Source: Saprospiraceae bacterium (lineage in GTDB: Bacteria > Bacteroidota > Bacteroidia > Chitinophagales > Saprospiraceae). From it: DNA of 64,000 bases. A program made the translations under genes and the position numbers. Below are positions 506 through 12,089 of the stretch, piece by piece. The notes below the pieces were generated by a model. That model was not told the origin of the DNA, made no database searches, and worked only from the letters and a program-made list of their open reading frames with translations. Each line of letters opens with the position of its first letter. Positions within the stretch are counted from its first letter, which is position 1. The stretch is from positions 1 through 64,000 of the forward strand of contig JAIBCG010000007.1 of assembly GCA_019694295.1 (NCBI GenBank), written 5' to 3'.

Positions 506-2800
506 ATGAAACATATTATACGGTTTGTAATCACGGCATATATTCTGGGTTTCGCCGGAGCTGTCATGGTTGATGCTCAAAATAAAATTATTTACATCAA
601 ACAAGATGCTAAAGGAAAAAATGATGGCAGTAGTTGGGAGGATGCCTTCAGTAACTTTGATTCATTGTTTACTAATCTTGAAGATGGGCTTGAAGTATGG
701 ATATCAAAAGGAGAATATACGGGAGGAGGTAAGATAGAATGGAAACTTTCAGGATATAATGTTTCAATTTTTGGAGGTTTTGATGGAACGGAGACAAGCA
801 TATTTGATCGGGATATTAAAAAGAATGAAACCAAGATAAATGGATACAAACAATTAAATACGCTTAAATTTCAGAACGGCAGATATTTATTGGACGGATT
901 GATAATACAAAACGGAAAGGCAAAAGGGCTAAACATTGGACCTGATTTGTATGATTGCGAATATTGGGGTCCTGCAGTATTCAGTTGCCGGGGTGGAGGA
1001 ATCCATGTTTATAGCGATTCAGTTGACAAGCCCTGCAACCTGACGATCAAAAACTGTATTATAAGGAAAAACTCAGCATTGTTTGGTGGCGGTCTATACA
1101 TTGATTCCACGCCTGGAGGTGTCTGTGGTTTATTGATGGATAGTTGTGAGGTGAGGGAAAACTATGCAGAGGAGCAAGGAGGTGGGATATACATAATAGG
1201 CGGGAAGGCCAAACAATTGCCTTTTATTATAAGTAATACGATAATAGAAAGTAATGCGTCGTCTAATACCGGAGGAATTTTATATGCGTCAAAGGATGCT
1301 AATGGAGAATTCGAACTCCGTAATTGTGATCTGTCAAAGAATTTAGCTAATGTCATAGGTGGTGCTGCGATAGGAGGGCACGATAACAAACGCTCCAAGA
1401 TTCTTAACTGTCGCTTTATGAATAACAAAGGGACAAATTACAACGGTGGAGGTTTGGGTGCTATGTTAATATCAACAGCAGACGTAAGAAATTGTGTTTT
1501 TAATGGTAATATAGGCTGGAGTGGTAATTTTCGGGCAAGAAGAACCAATTTCACAAACTGTGTATTTGCAAAGAATAAGTCTTACTATCCTGAAGACAAC
1601 TTGTTTGAGATATTTGAGTGGGGAAATCCACCGCCAGATGAGCGGAGCAATTTTTATAATTGCAGCTTTTATGATGAGACAAAGGGCGCAAAGCACCTTT
1701 TCCCGTTTATAGGGCAAAATGTCAATTTTAATAATTGTGCCTTTGAAGTAACGGATACGAATCTGATATTTTTCAAAACCGTGGTCGATACGGTAACATT
1801 CAATTATTGTAGTTTTAACCGTAAGGGATTGTCAGATAAATTTACCGCCAAACCGGTATCAGCTGACTTGCTACAGATCAACAACTGTCTGTGGGATACA
1901 CCTGCGGGCTTCAGAGACACAATCAGTAATGATTTTAGGCTGAGCAGTTGTTCGCCATTGATTAACAAAGGCTCAAACGAGTATATAGCGTATCTGGATT
2001 CGACAGACCTGTCTGGAGACGCCCGTGTACAGGAAGACCAGATAGACATAGGCGCTTATGAAACTACCGGAGTACAAATAAGTTACACGACACAGGCCAA
2101 TCTTTGTGCAGTTGATTCTACCGGAATGATAACAGTGACAGCAACAGGCGGCTTGCCGGTCTATGGTCTTGAGTATAACGGTGTACAACATGATACACTG
2201 ATCTTGAATAATATACAAAGCGGAGAACAAATTATCCGATTCTATGACGGCACACAATGCAGTATTGACATTGTGGCAAAGTTCGGACCTGAACACATTA
2301 GTTTCGACACACTGATAGTAGATGCTGGCAGCAAGACGAGCAAAGACGGAGCCATAAAGCTGAGCAACATACAAGGAGGCAACCCACCGTTGCTATTCAG
2401 TTGGTCTCCGGTGATATCTGCATCAGATTCGATAGGCGGCCTTGAACCTGGTAAATACACCTTGACTGTTACAGACAGTGCAGGCTGTACTGAAGCCTTC
2501 AGTTTTTATGTTTCATATCCTGACGCTGTTGATGAATGGTTGCTCCAAAGGAATATAAAGCTATATCCGAATCCAACCAGCACTATGCTGACCTTGGAGT
2601 TGAGTACAGGGCTTGCGCATACATCCTCCTACACCATCCACTGCTACGACCTGCTGGGCATGCGCTGTTATACGGGCACGCTACCGGCGTATTCGTACCT
2701 GCACACGATAGATGTATCGGCCTTCGCCCCGGGTATGTACTTCATAGAGCTGACGGACGGTGCAGGAAATATGCGGGTAGAGAAGTTTGTGCGGGAGTGA
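506..2800 (+). CDS. T9SS cargo protein with parallel beta-helix and SprB-like repeat
   Basis: 764 residues. It has a signal peptide (residues 1-24, ending VDAQ), then a long region of short repeated beta strands rich in N-N-C and G-G-G patterns (about 30-510), typical of right-handed parallel beta-helix proteins. The helix closes with DQIDIGAYE, the choice-of-anchor Q-type motif. An SprB-type repeat follows (about 595-670, GLEPGKYTLTVTDSAGC), and then a type A T9SS sorting domain (YPNPTSTMLTLEL near 690, ending EKFVRE). It is expected to be on the surface or released, possibly binding or cleaving polysaccharide, but no catalytic residues are recognisable. The last about 230 bp are much richer in GC than the rest of the gene (see findings). 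Confidence 0.82.
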   Translation: MKHIIRFVITAYILGFAGAVMVDAQNKIIYIKQDAKGKNDGSSWEDAFSNFDSLFTNLEDGLEVWISKGEYTGGGKIEWKLSGYNVSIFGGFDGTETSIFDRDIKKNETKINGYKQLNTLKFQNGRYLLDGLIIQNGKAKGLNIGPDLYDCEYWGPAVFSCRGGGIHVYSDSVDKPCNLTIKNCIIRKNSALFGGGLYIDSTPGGVCGLLMDSCEVRENYAEEQGGGIYIIGGKAKQLPFIISNTIIESNASSNTGGILYASKDANGEFELRNCDLSKNLANVIGGAAIGGHDNKRSKILNCRFMNNKGTNYNGGGLGAMLISTADVRNCVFNGNIGWSGNFRARRTNFTNCVFAKNKSYYPEDNLFEIFEWGNPPPDERSNFYNCSFYDETKGAKHLFPFIGQNVNFNNCAFEVTDTNLIFFKTVVDTVTFNYCSFNRKGLSDKFTAKPVSADLLQINNCLWDTPAGFRDTISNDFRLSSCSPLINKGSNEYIAYLDSTDLSGDARVQEDQIDIGAYETTGVQISYTTQANLCAVDSTGMITVTATGGLPVYGLEYNGVQHDTLILNNIQSGEQIIRFYDGTQCSIDIVAKFGPEHISFDTLIVDAGSKTSKDGAIKLSNIQGGNPPLLFSWSPVISASDSIGGLEPGKYTLTVTDSAGCTEAFSFYVSYPDAVDEWLLQRNIKLYPNPTSTMLTLELSTGLAHTSSYTIHCYDLLGMRCYTGTLPAYSYLHTIDVSAFAPGMYFIELTDGAGNMRVEKFVRE

Positions 2801-4709: not shown

Positions 4710-7700
4710 CTAATTACGTACCTTCAAAGGGTATTCTGTATCCTTCGCCACCGGACTGATCATAAAACCAAGCTCGGTATGTACTGCCTTTACCCGATCC
4801 TGCTCCAGTGGGCCACCTTGACCACAACTGTTGCCACCCAAGCCTGTAACAGCTGCATCTATCTCCAGATATGTATCAGTGGACTTTGGCAACAAATACG
4901 GATGCCTTGCCAAAATCAACTCAACAGGGCTGTACTGCAAGGCTGACGCTGCCATATTGTCTCTGGCCGGGATGAATACAGCTCCATCACCATGATCATC
5001 TGTAAGTGACAACCACCTGACATCCTCGCGGTTGCCCATGTCTTGAGGCTTCGGAAAATTAACGAACTGATCGGCTACTGTACTTTTGTACACGCCTACG
5101 AATGAAGAAGCCTTTCTGTCAGGATAATTGTCATGTGGTCCACGTCCGTAGTACGTATAATGGTTGTAACGTTGCGGTATATTCATCACAAAACCAAGTC
5201 TGCCAAGTACTAGCTCAGGTTTGTTGGAGTTAATCTCGGCTTTAAGTACAACCGAACCGTCGGCATACACCGTATATACTTGTTTGCTAGTAAATTTAAA
5301 ATCATCCGGGCCAAACTTTCTGTCTGTCAGCTCTTCTATTCTGCTGTTACCTGAGCTGGTGCCACCATGTATTTTTGCAGCATTGGGTGCCTGTGACTCA
5401 ACATGAAATACGGCGTTCATGCTGCCGTCAGTGTTCTGTGTAAATTCATAACGAATTACCTTATGGTGAAGATTGTGCAGACCATTCTCAAACCATGGTT
5501 GGTAAACCCAGTTGTCGTTGTTTACGAATGCTCGCAATGCGTTGATTCTAGGGCCTTTTCCTTCCGATATAATCTGGTTGTTACCATACTTCAGGCTATG
5601 TATGCTTCCGGTTTCGGTATCAAATAGTATTGTAAAATTATCTCCTTTTATGGTCTGTATTCTGCCTTTTGAATGCATTAATTCCGGCTTTGCATGGTTA
5701 GCTTTGGCTGCAATTGTTGAAACAAGAGGCCACCCACTAGCTTTTTTAATCAGGAACTGTTCTTCACACTGTGCATATCCTTTTTTTGCCCATGGTTTGC
5801 CTTCCTTTTGCAAAAACCTGATGTTGATGAAATACTCGGCATCTGCTGCCAGCTCCTGGAAATTATACGGGATGCTTATAGATTGTCTGTGGCGCGGCAA
5901 TATTTTTCCGGCATTTATTTTGCCACTCTGTATGGTCACACCATCTTTGATTATAATCCATTCAACATCAAAGTCTGAGAGGTCTTTGAAATAAAATTTG
6001 TTGAAAATTTCGAATTCGCCTTTCTGCACATCTTTTTCTTTTACCACAATATCTTGATATACTTTCTTTACTTCGTAATACTGTGGTTTTGGTTCATAGT
6101 CGCCGAAAATGAGACCATTCATCACAAACTGACCGTCATTCGGGAAATCGCCGAAATCACCTCCGTAAGCGAGAAATTTTTCACCCGTTTTCTCATCATA
6201 ATCATACATTGACTGATCTATCCAATCCCAGATGGCACCACCAAACAGGTGGTTTGTGCTTTCCATTGCGTCCCAGTAATCCTTTAGATTGCCACAAGCA
6301 TTACCCATCGAATGTGCATATTCTACAAGATGAAAAGGATATTTGATGTCGAAATCACCCTTTACTGCACCACGAACCCACTCTATAGAAGGATACATCG
6401 TTGAACCAAAATCAACGATATCATTGTTGCGCTCGTACTGTACAGGTCGCGATATATCAAATGCCTTTAGTGCATCATAAGCATACTTGAAATTCTTTCC
6501 CGGCCCTGCCTCATTGCCGAGCGACCAGATTACTATAGAAGGATGATTAACGTTTGCATGTGCCATTTCCATTACACGTGCCACGTGTGCTTCCTTCCAT
6601 TCTACAGGATGTGATAAGGATGCATCACCGTAGTAGTATTCGTGCGACTCGATATTGGCTTCGTCTTCCAGATATATGCCGTATTTGTCACACAGATGGT
6701 ACCAGTACGGATCATCCGGATAATGCGCATTTCTTACATGATTGATATTGGCACGCTTCATCAGAATAATTTCGTTTTCCATCATTTCACGCGTAATCGC
6801 GTGCCCTACCGAAGGGTTTGTCTCATGCCTGTTGACGCCGCGCAGTTTCACTGTTTTGCCATTTACATAATAATATCTTCCTGCAAGCTCGAACTCATCT
6901 TTTTCTGCTTGAGTGTCCTTGATTTCGACCTTTCGAAAACCTACAATAGCCGACACCGTTTCAATCGTTTTGCCCTTACTGTCTTTAAGCTCTGCTACAA
7001 GTGTATAGCGGTATGGTTCTTCAGCCGACCACTTATTAGGGTTATCGACTTTTATGACTGCATTGACAGTAGTCTTGATTTCTTTGGGTAAAATGTCTGT
7101 CAATGATGCCGATGCCGATACATTTGCCAATTTGGTAGTTTCGTCAGCATACAATTTATTGGCATACAATGTATATTCAATGTTGCACTTTTCTGCCTTA
7201 TCATTACTCAGATTTCGGACATCCGCCTGTATGTTGAGTGAACCGTTATTGTAATTTTCATCCAAGTCGGGTGTAACTCTCAGATCCCTTATATGTAATT
7301 TCGGAACGGAGTACAGCGAGACTGTTCGGAAAATTCCCGGCAGTCGGAACATATCCTGCGACTCTAAAAACGACCCGTCGGACAGGCGATAAACTTCTAC
7401 AGCCAGTGTATTTTTGTCCGGTTTCAGGTATTTTTGGATGTTGAATGTGGCTGCATTGCGCGAATTCTTCGAAAAGCCAACGTACCTGCCATTTACCCAA
7501 AGGTAGAAAAAGCAGTCAACACCATCAAAATTTAGGAATACCTCACGTCCATTCCAATCTGCCGGAATGTCAAAATCTCTCCTGAAGGATCCTACCTCGT
7601 TTCTGTATTCGTAAGTTGTCCATTCTTTTGGTGGTGTGCGCATTACACCGCCGCGCCAGTCATCCACTTCTATCTTGTGTTGAAAAATGACAGGTTGGTT

Positions 7701-8117
7701 TACGTATATCGGCACGCCATATTTAAGGCTTCCGTCTTTCTGGATGCCGTAGATATTCCAGCTCAATGGTACGGGCACATTGTCCCAGCCAGATACATCA
7801 AAAGTAAGTTTGTAAAAATCTTTCGGTCTTGTATCGGGTGTTTTGGCAAAATGGAATTTCCAGGTACCGTTCAGTGTTTTCCAATATTTTGAGTTTTCGG
7901 GCAATACCTTCAGGGCTGATGAGACATCCTGAAATGAGCTAAACCAGGCATGAGGCAGCTCTTTGTTCAATGCCAAATCCTGAGGCGATTCCCACTCTTT
8001 TCCTGAAGGCATCTGCTCATCACCATAGCGGTAGCCTTCTATCATTTTCTGGCCTGCCCCTTCATTTATACATAGCAAAGTCCACAATAGTGCCAATAAT
8101 AACTTTCCTTTTTTCAT
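4710..8117 (-). CDS. Beta-galactosidase-like GH2 glycoside hydrolase
   Basis: About 1135 residues, the size of LacZ-type enzymes plus a signal peptide (KKGKLLLALLWTLLCINEGAGQ). The order is GH2 jelly-roll sugar-binding domain (about 70-275), immunoglobulin-like domains, TIM barrel (about 410-700) and a C-terminal beta-galactosidase small-chain domain. The general acid/base glutamate is in WSLGNEAGPG (about residue 536) and the nucleophile in EYAHSMGN (about residue 599). Substrate is a terminal beta-linked galactose or similar sugar in the periplasm or outside the cell. The open frame begins at a TTG (8129), but ATG at 8117 gives a clean signal peptide and is preferred. The gene lies just downstream of the GH31 gene on the same strand, implying one operon acting on one glycan. 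No SusC/SusD pair is present nearby. Confidence 0.9.
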   Translation of the reverse strand: MKKGKLLLALLWTLLCINEGAGQKMIEGYRYGDEQMPSGKEWESPQDLALNKELPHAWFSSFQDVSSALKVLPENSKYWKTLNGTWKFHFAKTPDTRPKDFYKLTFDVSGWDNVPVPLSWNIYGIQKDGSLKYGVPIYVNQPVIFQHKIEVDDWRGGVMRTPPKEWTTYEYRNEVGSFRRDFDIPADWNGREVFLNFDGVDCFFYLWVNGRYVGFSKNSRNAATFNIQKYLKPDKNTLAVEVYRLSDGSFLESQDMFRLPGIFRTVSLYSVPKLHIRDLRVTPDLDENYNNGSLNIQADVRNLSNDKAEKCNIEYTLYANKLYADETTKLANVSASASLTDILPKEIKTTVNAVIKVDNPNKWSAEEPYRYTLVAELKDSKGKTIETVSAIVGFRKVEIKDTQAEKDEFELAGRYYYVNGKTVKLRGVNRHETNPSVGHAITREMMENEIILMKRANINHVRNAHYPDDPYWYHLCDKYGIYLEDEANIESHEYYYGDASLSHPVEWKEAHVARVMEMAHANVNHPSIVIWSLGNEAGPGKNFKYAYDALKAFDISRPVQYERNNDIVDFGSTMYPSIEWVRGAVKGDFDIKYPFHLVEYAHSMGNACGNLKDYWDAMESTNHLFGGAIWDWIDQSMYDYDEKTGEKFLAYGGDFGDFPNDGQFVMNGLIFGDYEPKPQYYEVKKVYQDIVVKEKDVQKGEFEIFNKFYFKDLSDFDVEWIIIKDGVTIQSGKINAGKILPRHRQSISIPYNFQELAADAEYFINIRFLQKEGKPWAKKGYAQCEEQFLIKKASGWPLVSTIAAKANHAKPELMHSKGRIQTIKGDNFTILFDTETGSIHSLKYGNNQIISEGKGPRINALRAFVNNDNWVYQPWFENGLHNLHHKVIRYEFTQNTDGSMNAVFHVESQAPNAAKIHGGTSSGNSRIEELTDRKFGPDDFKFTSKQVYTVYADGSVVLKAEINSNKPELVLGRLGFVMNIPQRYNHYTYYGRGPHDNYPDRKASSFVGVYKSTVADQFVNFPKPQDMGNREDVRWLSLTDDHGDGAVFIPARDNMAASALQYSPVELILARHPYLLPKSTDTYLEIDAAVTGLGGNSCGQGGPLEQDRVKAVHTELGFMISPVAKDTEYPLKVRN

Positions 8118-8152
8118 AAAATATCCCAATTACTTTTTATATTTATTACTTA

Positions 8153-11100
8153 CTAAAACTTCAACTGTATCAGTCTCTTATCTACCAGCAGACCATCTTT
8201 TGCTTTAAGCCCGAATGTAAGGTTCCTTTTAGCAACAAACCGGATGACGAACAGTTTGTCGCTTCCGCTCAATGTCTGCCTGTCACCTATATTGACAAAC
8301 ACAGGATACAGTACCTTATTGCCATCGGTGTGAAGACGGTCGCGTGTGAAATTTTCCAGATTTCCTGTATGAATGGCCTGAATACCTGCATATTCATAAT
8401 CTGCAGTATTGTATGGCAAGGCAAAACCAAGGGCATTGACCAAGCTGAATCCGGCTGAACTCACCGTGATATGCATTGTATCACCTTTGCTGTAATTTGC
8501 CTTATCATTTTGCAGTAATATTTTTCCTGACATGGTATCCTGACTTTCTTCCCACGCTCCGCCTTCAAGTGCTGTAGCCACGTTCGATATATCGTATGCG
8601 TCAATGACACCGTTGCGGTTTAGGTCGCCCTTGCTGATGTAGCCTTCAAAATCGGCATCTCCTTGGCGCAGTCCTGTATAATTCATGTACGAAGTCAGGT
8701 CATTCTGGTCTATCAATCCGTCGTGATTGATGTCGCCCGGTAGTTGCGACTCCGTACCCGATACCCTGTACACATATAGCTCACGGCCAGAGCCAAAATT
8801 GCCAACAGCCTCTGATACTTCTATCTTTAAGTATCGTGTCACCGGTTTTTCTGCGAATGAAAATTCCTTCACTTTATCATCTCGCTTCCAGGTAAAAGTA
8901 CCTGCTTGAAGCCAGTTGGCTTTATCTATGCTGTAAGAAATGTTTCCCTTGAGCCATGTGCCATTGCCGGCTCCGGTTCTAGGCAAATATTGCAATTTTT
9001 CGATCTGGCTGATGCTGTTGAGATTGATGATCATGTTAAACGGCACTGCCGGTGCATCCCAACGCGTGTGCCAAATGTTCGCTTCGTCAAAATCAAATAA
9101 ATTGGCTATGCCTTCACCCGGTTGGTTGCGGACACTTACTCGTGCGGTTAAGCCATGGATAGCATCCTGAAGCGGATTGGCAAGCGTTTTTGTCTCGATT
9201 ACTGTCCATGGCGATTCGGTAATATTTTTTGCTCTGATCTTGAAACGGTAGCTTGTTTCGGGCTGGAGGTCTTCGAACAGGAAAGTCGTGTCACGTATCA
9301 GTGTGTATAACATGCCGTTGAATTCTATTTCATAGTAATCTGCTCCCGGTACAGCTTTCCACGAAGGCAACAGGCTGAATGCATGCCGATTTTCTTCCTT
9401 CATCTCCGCAATTGGTTTTTCTGGTCCCTCTGAGCGTAGAGTGGTTTTATGTTTTGGTTCCTGGCGAAACTTTTTTATACTCAGAGTTAAGGTAGTCCGG
9501 CTTACGTCACCAGGCTCGAGTTTTACCCACAGTTGAGCATTGCGTTTGATAATCTTTTGTGAAAAATCACTTCCCTTAGTTGCGTAGCGGTTAAATTCGG
9601 GCTGAAGATAAATCCAGACATTTTCACCTGATTTATATTCTGCTTCGGTATATACCTGTTTCAGTTTTATTTTCTTTGCATTGATTTTCGCTTCAATATG
9701 GTTGGGTAATATGGGTGCATTTACTTTAAATTCAGTTGTTTTTATATGAGTGAAATTTTTAAAATCACCAACTGTGGGATGGATAATCAGTTCGGCTTTA
9801 TTGTTTGCCTCCTTGCTTTCAATCTGTGTTGTTGTATATTTTCCTGAAAGGTATTCTTGCGAAATGCCATCATCATCATATTCGGTAAATGAAGTATTTC
9901 CCTTTGGATAAAATTCGTAAATACGATGTTTTTTATCAATCTCTGACACGTTATTATTTGCATTGGCCAGTGGGATGATAGCCCCTGCTTTAACGAAAAC
10001 AGGAATTTTCCACAATGGTACACTGAACGAATTGATCACCTTGCCGCCTTCGTATTCTTCACCGGTAAAATAATCGACCCAGCTACCAGGTGGCAGATAA
10101 ATGTTATTGCGTATGTCATTGCCTTGGGCATCAGCAGCCGTATTCTGATATACAGGAGCAACCAAGAAGGAAGGTCCGTACATATATTGGTATTGTGTTG
10201 CAGTACCGAGTGTAAATTCGTTTGGATCTACAAGAAACATAGCCTGTATCATGGGTAGTCCGTTTACTGCCTGCCTTGCAATGCTGTAACTATATGGGAG
10301 GAGTTCGCTTTTTAGTTTGAGGTAGAGCCTGTTGATGGAGGTAGCCGGTTCCCCGAGTGCATGTGGGTATTTTTCGTTGGTGCCCCAGCCATCCATGTTC
10401 AGTTGCATCGGTGTAAATGTTTTCCACTGGAAATCCCGGACGTTAACCGGAAGGTTTTTACCTCCGAATATGCCATCCATGTCTGAAGTGATATTAGGCA
10501 TACCTGACAATCCCGCACCGATGTAGGTAGGTATATGGAATCGGATGTACTCCCAGTTACCGCCCGTCTGATCACCCGACCATACGCCTGCATAACGCTG
10601 TGTGCCTGCCCAGCCGTCAAGCGATATGATGAATGGCCTTGCACCAGAGCCGTATTCTGCAAAGACAGAAGCAGCATCTGCCACCCCATTGAGCCCGAAT
10701 GAATAACCGGCACCTACCCAAGCTACATCTGTCTTGAGTACACGTACACCGGCGTCTCTTACCTCCTTTACAATATCACGCTGAAGCAATGCACTGATGC
10801 CTTGTTTAGGATGGAGATCACTTTGGGTCCATAAGCCGATTTCTACTCCATTTTTTCTGGCGTAATCGCCAAATGACTTAAGATTCTGTATATTGCTGTC
10901 AAGTGTTGATGTTTGGCCGTAGCCGGCTCCGTAGCCATCATTTGGCAATATCCAGCCTAACGGCATATCGTGTTGCCTGTACCGGACTATCACAGCACGA
11001 GCCGAAAACTGGTAGTTGTTCTTTTCACCGTTCAATGATTCAAGGATACCACCGTTGTCTTTCTGACTTTCGGTGTAGTACTTGCCATCTTCAAACCGTA

Positions 11101-11968
11101 TTCCTCGTTTTCCGGTGGTATCTTCTTTCCAATAATCGCGGTTGTAAGCATTCAGGTGGCCTTGGTAGAATCCGAATTTTGGCAATAAAAGTGCTTGCCC
11201 CGTAAGTTGGTAATAGCCCTGAAGGAGCTGTACAGGTTCCTGGCTTATCATAATAAATACATCGAGATAAGAATCATTGTGAAAGAGCCTGACCGTTCCT
11301 CGTTCTTTTAAGCCAAAATCATACCTGCCTGGCTTGAATGTATGCCATAAAAGCCCGTAGCCTGAAGTACTCCAGTAAAATGGTACCGGCGAAGCCACAC
11401 CACCATCGGTCCAGCTGTTCTGGTTTTCTATTGAAATGGCTTTGCCTTTGTGCGAAAAGCGTCCGTTTTGAACACCACCACCATAAAAATATTCATCTGT
11501 ACCTTCAGATAGCGCTATGTTTGACTTGTCATTTTCTACAAATATCGGCTTATTTAGCTTGAAAGCCTGTTTATTGAAAGCAAGGTTGAAGGCAGTAAGG
11601 ATTCCTGATTTTTTATCGATAGTGAGTTTTATTTTTTTTGACTGAATGGATATTTCATTACCAGCATCTGAGATTTGCAATGCTCCTACGGGTTTTCTTG
11701 GGTTATCTGCCAGGATTTTTGCAGGTGGTTTTGCTACAGGAACATGTGGTTTATCGCCGTGAGGACTATAAAACATCCGGAAGGAATTTTCACTATAAAA
11801 ATCGATATATAGTACTTGTTGGTTACCAAAAACGAGCTCTGCCTCATGTGTTCCGGTCAGTTTGCCTCCGGTAAAATTTTTTAATTCTACTTGAGCCGGT
11901 AGCAGTAGGTAAAGAAAAAATGCCGGCAAAGCAATTAAAACCCGCTTAGAAAAATTATTGGGTGTCAT
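8153..11968 (-). CDS. GH31 glycoside hydrolase with FN3, discoidin, dockerin-like and cohesin-like modules
   Basis: About 1271 residues from ATG 11968, which gives a signal peptide ending LLPAQ; upstream in-frame ATGs at 11992 and 12019 would add a poor leader. The GH31 core shows the nucleophile in VLKTDVAW (about D414) and the acid/base in RYAGVWSGDQTGGNW (about D466), with C-terminal beta domains. An FN3 domain (about 855-930) and an F5/8 type C discoidin domain (about 930-1070) follow. Then come two EF-hand-like loops, DINHDGLIDQND and DLNRNGVIDAYD (about 1077-1138), matching type I dockerin. The last about 125 residues look like a cohesin fold. It is probably an alpha-glucosidase or alpha-xylosidase; substrate is not certain. 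It is the first gene of the operon with the GH2 enzyme. Confidence 0.87.
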   Translation of the reverse strand: MTPNNFSKRVLIALPAFFLYLLLPAQVELKNFTGGKLTGTHEAELVFGNQQVLYIDFYSENSFRMFYSPHGDKPHVPVAKPPAKILADNPRKPVGALQISDAGNEISIQSKKIKLTIDKKSGILTAFNLAFNKQAFKLNKPIFVENDKSNIALSEGTDEYFYGGGVQNGRFSHKGKAISIENQNSWTDGGVASPVPFYWSTSGYGLLWHTFKPGRYDFGLKERGTVRLFHNDSYLDVFIMISQEPVQLLQGYYQLTGQALLLPKFGFYQGHLNAYNRDYWKEDTTGKRGIRFEDGKYYTESQKDNGGILESLNGEKNNYQFSARAVIVRYRQHDMPLGWILPNDGYGAGYGQTSTLDSNIQNLKSFGDYARKNGVEIGLWTQSDLHPKQGISALLQRDIVKEVRDAGVRVLKTDVAWVGAGYSFGLNGVADAASVFAEYGSGARPFIISLDGWAGTQRYAGVWSGDQTGGNWEYIRFHIPTYIGAGLSGMPNITSDMDGIFGGKNLPVNVRDFQWKTFTPMQLNMDGWGTNEKYPHALGEPATSINRLYLKLKSELLPYSYSIARQAVNGLPMIQAMFLVDPNEFTLGTATQYQYMYGPSFLVAPVYQNTAADAQGNDIRNNIYLPPGSWVDYFTGEEYEGGKVINSFSVPLWKIPVFVKAGAIIPLANANNNVSEIDKKHRIYEFYPKGNTSFTEYDDDGISQEYLSGKYTTTQIESKEANNKAELIIHPTVGDFKNFTHIKTTEFKVNAPILPNHIEAKINAKKIKLKQVYTEAEYKSGENVWIYLQPEFNRYATKGSDFSQKIIKRNAQLWVKLEPGDVSRTTLTLSIKKFRQEPKHKTTLRSEGPEKPIAEMKEENRHAFSLLPSWKAVPGADYYEIEFNGMLYTLIRDTTFLFEDLQPETSYRFKIRAKNITESPWTVIETKTLANPLQDAIHGLTARVSVRNQPGEGIANLFDFDEANIWHTRWDAPAVPFNMIINLNSISQIEKLQYLPRTGAGNGTWLKGNISYSIDKANWLQAGTFTWKRDDKVKEFSFAEKPVTRYLKIEVSEAVGNFGSGRELYVYRVSGTESQLPGDINHDGLIDQNDLTSYMNYTGLRQGDADFEGYISKGDLNRNGVIDAYDISNVATALEGGAWEESQDTMSGKILLQNDKANYSKGDTMHITVSSAGFSLVNALGFALPYNTADYEYAGIQAIHTGNLENFTRDRLHTDGNKVLYPVFVNIGDRQTLSGSDKLFVIRFVAKRNLTFGLKAKDGLLVDKRLIQLKF

Positions 11969-12089
11969 TATTTTGGTGCAATGGTGGTTCATTACAAAGA
12001 TAGCTCTTCTTACCCACATTTTCTGACAGAAATTTTCAAGATCTGTCTGTGTTCTTTATGAATAATATTTAAACATTTTACCGTAAATA

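Follow-up and report, generated by a model that had tools for sequence, protein, structure and literature searches.

A predicted intramolecular dockerin-cohesin clasp on a putative mucin-type α-N-acetylgalactosaminidase of Bacteroidota

Pairs of cohesin and dockerin are known for gluing separate proteins together, and clostridial non-cellulosomal cohesins dock the dockerins of other enzymes. In Clostridium perfringens, a glycoside hydrolase family 31 (GH31) enzyme bears both a cohesin and a dockerin; this cohesin failed to bind any dockerin tested, and AlphaFold3 predicts GH31-Coh in complex with GH31-Doc and also with GH2-Doc (PMC12997984). These data would fit, rather than prove, a self-occupied pair. 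The C. perfringens genome encodes several other enzymes with cohesins or dockerins, whereas most of the Bacteroidota carriers tested here encode none. The GH31 α-N-acetylgalactosaminidase of Enterococcus (6m76, 6m77, 7f7q, and 7f7r) shares the catalytic part and both candidate catalytic aspartates with the enzyme described below, but its solved chain ends after a fibronectin type III (fn3)-like part, the protein name refers to an LPXTG wall anchor, and that chain has no dockerin or cohesin. BT3169 and a Bacteroides caccae enzyme are α-GalNAcases of the same GH family and phylum, of which BT3169 acts on desialylated bovine submaxillary mucin; their description makes no mention of a dockerin or cohesin and does not discuss C-terminal modules (PMC11992087). 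GH31 α-GalNAcases matter for mucin breakdown and for the removal of Tn-type sugars.

Here, we analyzed a stretch of 64,000 nucleotides from a Saprospiraceae bacterium (referred to as the window). It encodes a GH31 enzyme which, compared to the type I cellulosomal pairs 5nrk, 2vn5, and 2ccl, has no scaffoldin and combines a single dockerin and a single cohesin in the same polypeptide. The features of the locus are as follows.

8153..12019, minus strand: GH31 enzyme open reading frame, 1288 amino acids counted from the first ATG (stop codon, 8153-8155)
11891..11968, minus strand: probable Sec signal peptide (about residues 18-43, MTPNNFSKRVLIALPAFFLYLLLPAQ), as read by eye
9440..11842, minus strand: GH31 catalytic part, with N-terminal mutarotase-like, TIM-barrel, GH31 C-terminal, and DUF5110 domains
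10727..10729, minus strand: Asp431 (LKTDVAW), candidate nucleophile, opposite residue 434 of the 6m76 chain
10571..10573, minus strand: Asp483 (WSGDQTGG), candidate acid/base, opposite residue 487 of the 6m76 chain
9185..9439, minus strand: fn3-like module (residues 861-945; Pfam E 0.0017, under the curated cutoff)
8759..9184, minus strand: F5/8 type C/CBM32-like module (residues 946-1087)
8564..8740, minus strand: type I dockerin (residues 1094-1152)
8699..8734, minus strand: dockerin calcium loop 1, DINHDGLIDQND
8591..8626, minus strand: dockerin calcium loop 2, DLNRNGVIDAYD
8531..8563, minus strand: dockerin-cohesin linker of 11 residues, variable in sequence (32% pairwise identity)
8156..8530, minus strand: cohesin (residues 1164-1288, 125 amino acids), the C-terminal end of the protein
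4710..8129, minus strand: GH2 β-galactosidase-like gene, 23 bases downstream of the GH31 gene

The true start of the enzyme may be Met18 (∼11968), where the alignment of its best homologue begins, and the enzyme is predicted to be exported. A type IX secretion system (T9SS) sorting domain of the PF18962 or TIGR04183 type was not found in it, and the last cohesin strand forms its C terminus. The last 125 residues were also considered as such a sorting domain themselves, which was ruled out by the domain searches and by the Foldseek matches to cohesins (see below).

Residues 68 to 945 aligned with almost the whole chain of 6m76 (E 4e-264), including D431 and D483, which we take, from general knowledge of GH31, to be nucleophile and acid/base, respectively. 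From this alignment, we infer that the enzyme is an α-N-acetylgalactosaminidase, predicted to cut GalNAc off mucin-type proteins. The best fold matches of the F5/8 type C module were C. perfringens CBM32s, with the CBM32 of a GH31 enzyme ranking first, and other close matches were structures solved with galactose or Tn antigen; the module probably holds Gal/GalNAc. The GH31 and GH2 genes are probably cotranscribed, and the GH2 enzyme is a possible functional partner, as a galactosidase followed by an α-GalNAcase would suit core 1 O-glycans. The same adjacency was present in a Chitinophagaceae metagenome-assembled genome (MAG) harboring the best homologue. However, a GH2 homologue adjoined only 3 of 82 relatives (74% identity in the Chitinophagaceae MAG and 62 and 36% in the others). 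A shared operon as a general rule was therefore rejected, and GH2 is not a fixed partner of the GH31 enzyme.

The module at residues 1094 to 1152 is a genuine type I dockerin. PF00404 matched residues 1094 to 1151 (window positions 8567-8740) with E 8.7e-6 and 26.3 bits in the full protein and E 5.5e-7 and 30.1 bits in the fragment, compared to a curated cutoff of 22.9 bits, and the dockerin of 5nrk aligned with it without gaps. Both 12-residue EF-hand loops are intact: scored at positions 1, 3, 5, 9, and 12 of each loop, the calcium ligands D1096, N1098, D1100, D1104, and D1107 of loop 1 and D1132, N1134, N1136, D1140, and D1143 of loop 2 were invariant or conserved to 99% in 83 sequences. 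Among 82 aligned homologues, conservation was highest in the dockerin, with 81% pairwise identity compared to 72% in the catalytic part and 58% in the cohesin. A search of the PDB with the single C-terminal sequence yielded weak dockerin or EF-hand matches and no convincing cohesin.

Residues 1164 to 1288 constitute a divergent yet genuine cohesin. On the single sequence this would be a guess, since the cohesin of the window's enzyme scored only E 0.19 against PF00963 and was missed by Pfam; likewise, a family profile of the cohesin alone retrieved one cohesin from the PDB sequences at a nonsignificant E of 0.18. The identity is firm because homologues match the family and because the predicted fold finds cohesins. 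PF00963 was matched by 22 of 24 homologous C termini (best E 2.9e-10), and in whole-genome searches five GH31 homologues passed its curated cutoff; the cohesin of the Phocaeicola coprophilus homologue scored 39.8 bits. When an AlphaFold2 (AF2) model of dockerin plus cohesin was compared to the PDB with Foldseek, ranks 1 to 45 were all cohesins or cohesin-bearing scaffoldin chains (best E 9e-6), the 10 best having TM scores of 0.54 to 0.68 by target length and rmsd values of ∼3.4 to 4.4 Å. The cohesin of 5nrk was the best match, and the non-cellulosomal cohesins 2vo8 and 2jh2 (C. perfringens) and 2xdh (Archaeoglobus fulgidus) ranked 5, 7, and 18, with only 13 to 18% sequence identity. With a longer model (fn3, CBM32, dockerin, and cohesin), the output was dominated by CBM32 matches. 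The initial annotation of the window had proposed a type I dockerin with two EF-hand loops, followed directly by a cohesin of ∼125 residues, and had named a different β-sandwich family without calcium loops as the finding that would speak against self-binding; both modules were borne out, with a cohesin fold and two intact loops.

In known complexes, cohesin strands 3, 5, and 6 meet the dockerin, and strand 8 also usually belongs to the docking face. Strands 3, 5, and 6 were the most conserved in the GH31 cohesins (0.93, 0.85, and 0.79), with strand numbers set by order and pattern rather than superposition and with strand 3 also being partly core. Strand 8, at 0.67, was not specially conserved.

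The fusion of GH31, dockerin, and cohesin is widespread and not special to the Saprospiraceae source. A scan of a genome collection revealed 418 stretches encoding a relative, of which the best 80 were kept and joined by two from whole genomes. All 82 of these homologues (2 of them cut or broken N-terminally) carried the dockerin and then the cohesin, and their end points differed by a few residues at most, although the set was picked by score and is hence biased to full-length proteins. They were 56 to 65% identical to the window's enzyme, and despite the variable linker sequence, the dockerin-cohesin pair hardly varied in length (63 of 82 had 195 residues). As a less biased test, we used a sample of 392 Bacteroidota genomes, six of which encoded the GH31 enzyme; the pair was present in exactly those six, at the same loci. 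The enzyme was found in no other listed genome of the window organism's family, and within its order in 3 of 199 genomes, including its own. The distribution of the gene is thus patchy, and it may have been acquired by transfer. A survey of human gut genomes published in 2026 found dockerins and cohesins together in 78 Bacteroidetes MAGs, a co-presence that its authors called surprising and in need of further investigation (PMC12997984). The GH31 fusion is a candidate explanation for it.

Potential partners were searched for in the genomes of 16 named relatives, including Bacteroides fragilis and Elizabethkingia miricola. In these genomes, a full-length dockerin match and cohesins above the cutoff occurred only in the GH31 enzyme; a few other cohesin matches were weak (E 0.045 and up). 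Other dockerin matches were partial, mostly covering 20 to 40 model positions in frames of ∼1000 to 1175 residues. Three of them (two in Niabella and one in Sphingobacterium) passed the cutoff, and a match in Zhouia covered model positions 3 to 52 but stayed under it. We interpret the partial matches as isolated EF-like loops of other proteins; the frame lengths would suit SusC-like receptors. A profile of the dockerin-cohesin pair retrieved only GH31 enzymes in 15 of the 16 genomes, and in Empedobacter one additional match at chance level (E 0.03), so that nothing besides GH31 was found at E < 0.01. None of the 16 relatives had a multi-cohesin scaffoldin together with several dockerin enzymes, by which a cellulosome or mucinolysome is recognized. 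One conserved enzyme family thus appears to own the whole pair, being its sole clear carrier in most of the relatives' genomes tested. Since no other clear dockerin or cohesin is present there, the pair would serve the GH31 enzyme itself in most carriers. In Bacteroides faecalis, the profile detected two GH31 copies (G211:C1:263015 and 344056), which lie ∼81 kb apart and have equal dockerin and cohesin scores, possibly due to a recent duplication or an assembly effect.

AF2 modeled the dockerin-cohesin pair with a mean pLDDT of 90.7 and a pTM of 0.87. By simple arithmetic, an unplaced dockerin would give a pTM near 0.65, and one placed within ∼3 Å a pTM near 0.86. On this basis, the observed value requires that the dockerin be placed relative to the cohesin to within ∼3 Å of expected error, bearing in mind that pTM is an indirect measure of placement and that a covalent tether can bias AF2. 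The two modules are thus predicted to adopt a fixed mutual placement, with a contact that presumably corresponds to the canonical dockerin-cohesin interface and would form within one chain. Taken together, the conserved dockerin, the conserved cohesin strands, the near-constant length of the pair, and the pTM lead us to favor, with moderate confidence, a self-contained, non-cellulosomal, intramolecular clasp on a mucin-type α-GalNAcase. Further support comes from the constant fusion of the modules across Bacteroidota, the lack of other clear partners in the relatives, the C. perfringens cohesin that bound no dockerin tested and is predicted to pair with GH31-Doc, and the missing T9SS tail of the GH31 enzyme. 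According to this model, the exported enzyme would remove core GalNAc from mucin-type O-glycoproteins, while its dockerin folds back and docks on the following cohesin of the same chain. The docked pair would form a calcium-dependent terminal clasp, which may benefit the enzyme by fixing or protecting its tail and perhaps by holding the CBM32 in a set orientation beside the catalytic domain, rather than serving as a recruitment tag for a cellulosome-like complex. Four points count against the clasp. One is that strand 8, part of the usual docking face, lacks special conservation, and another is the presence of other cohesins and dockerins in the organism's own genome. A third is the predicted interaction of GH31-Coh with GH2-Doc in C. 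perfringens. Moreover, dockerin-cohesin coevolution was not enriched: by mutual information, 17 of the top 200 pairs linked dockerin and cohesin, equal to the rate for CBM32 and cohesin. This test is weak, as the dockerin hardly varies and the alignment amounts to ∼72 effective sequences. We consider the chances about even that a widespread lineage within Bacteroidota, including gut Bacteroides, uses the pair, as the only dockerin and cohesin of the genome, to latch a mucin-active enzyme within its own chain in a calcium-dependent manner.

The same pattern of module conservation would fit equally well if the dockerin of one GH31 molecule docked into the cohesin of another, yielding dimers or chains. 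As each chain bears both halves and most genomes hold no other clear partner, the stoichiometry allows such self-association, but AF2 already places the modules confidently in a single chain, and on general reasoning a tethered partner is present at very high local concentration; we therefore regard docking between chains as unlikely. Somewhat less probable still is that dockerin and cohesin have become structural spacers, which have lost canonical docking and are perhaps packed on the CBM32 or the catalytic domain. Such a role would be in line with the divergence of the cohesin, as seen in its TM scores, rmsd values, and the Pfam E of the window's member, and with the lack of a coevolution signal, but it is at odds with the invariant calcium ligands and with the docking-face strands 3, 5, and 6 being the most conserved of the cohesin, and the pTM suggests that the modules pack on each other. 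That the enzyme takes part in a mucinolysome-like dockerin-cohesin complex with other proteins seems very improbable: its genome does encode further dockerins, cohesins, and multi-cohesin proteins, and C. perfringens and, by prediction, Limousia pair mucin enzymes in this way (PMC12997984), but the relatives have no other clear partner, the other proteins of the genome mostly carry T9SS tails, which the GH31 enzyme does not, and most of the remaining dockerin matches begin only at profile position 10 (positions 10-57 covered), so that the start of the model is missing from them.

The initial annotation had left open whether the protein binds itself, forms chains, or locks onto other dockerin or cohesin proteins. 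Of these options, binding within the chain, our preferred reading, is best supported by the AF2 model, chains are less likely, and locking onto further proteins is improbable as a general role, given that the 16 relatives have no other full-length dockerin or above-cutoff cohesin. It had further suggested a non-cellulosomal use of the pair, in agreement with the results for the 16 relatives, and had noted no other cellulosome part. The latter holds for the window but not for the whole genome, which has 11 dockerin matches (the GH31 enzyme and 10 further, dockerin-like ones) and 11 Pfam cohesin matches, the GH31 cohesin not being among them. A profile of the GH31 cohesin matched two of these cohesins (E 7.5e-7 and 5.2e-6). 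The carriers are long proteins, mostly with T9SS-type tails as read by eye; in several, a dockerin-like stretch is followed by a cohesin, and others hold several cohesins. Since the GH31 enzyme has no T9SS tail while most of the others do, it probably sits apart from them and does not join the T9SS-tailed system, which is a separate and perhaps more interesting one.

Scaffoldin-like surface proteins of this genome are encoded on contigs C97 (87562-91140, 86707-87498, and 11124-15158; loci L023 and L024) and C137 (19170-22199; L027). Each contains between one and about four cohesin-like repeats and ends in a T9SS-type tail; SprB-like repeats occur in the long ones, and two of the proteins are encoded next to each other. 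These proteins resemble the cohesin-bearing half of a surface dockerin-cohesin network in the window organism's family, whose other members also have many cohesins. Further long T9SS-tailed proteins, encoded on contigs C15 (40504-47583, 48090-52490, and 52803-56594; L025) and C45 (25382-32179; L026), contain a dockerin-like stretch, in which the first loop is degenerate, followed by a cohesin and a sorting tail, with the module order as in the GH31 enzyme but in another setting. Near the GH31 gene itself, the window encodes a T9SS cargo protein of 764 amino acids (506-2800, plus strand; Por_Secre_tail, E 1.9e-11). A Bacteroidota-type GH31 enzyme with the pair is also encoded on NZ_FXYA01000204.1 (6001-9846), a sequence titled Akkermansia muciniphila and possibly derived from a mislabeled or mixed metagenome bin. 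Of the 392 sampled Bacteroidota genomes, 135 contained a cohesin match with E ≤ 0.001, in many cases several, and mostly lay outside the window organism's class; cohesins seem far more common in Bacteroidota than the literature on cellulosomes would lead one to expect.
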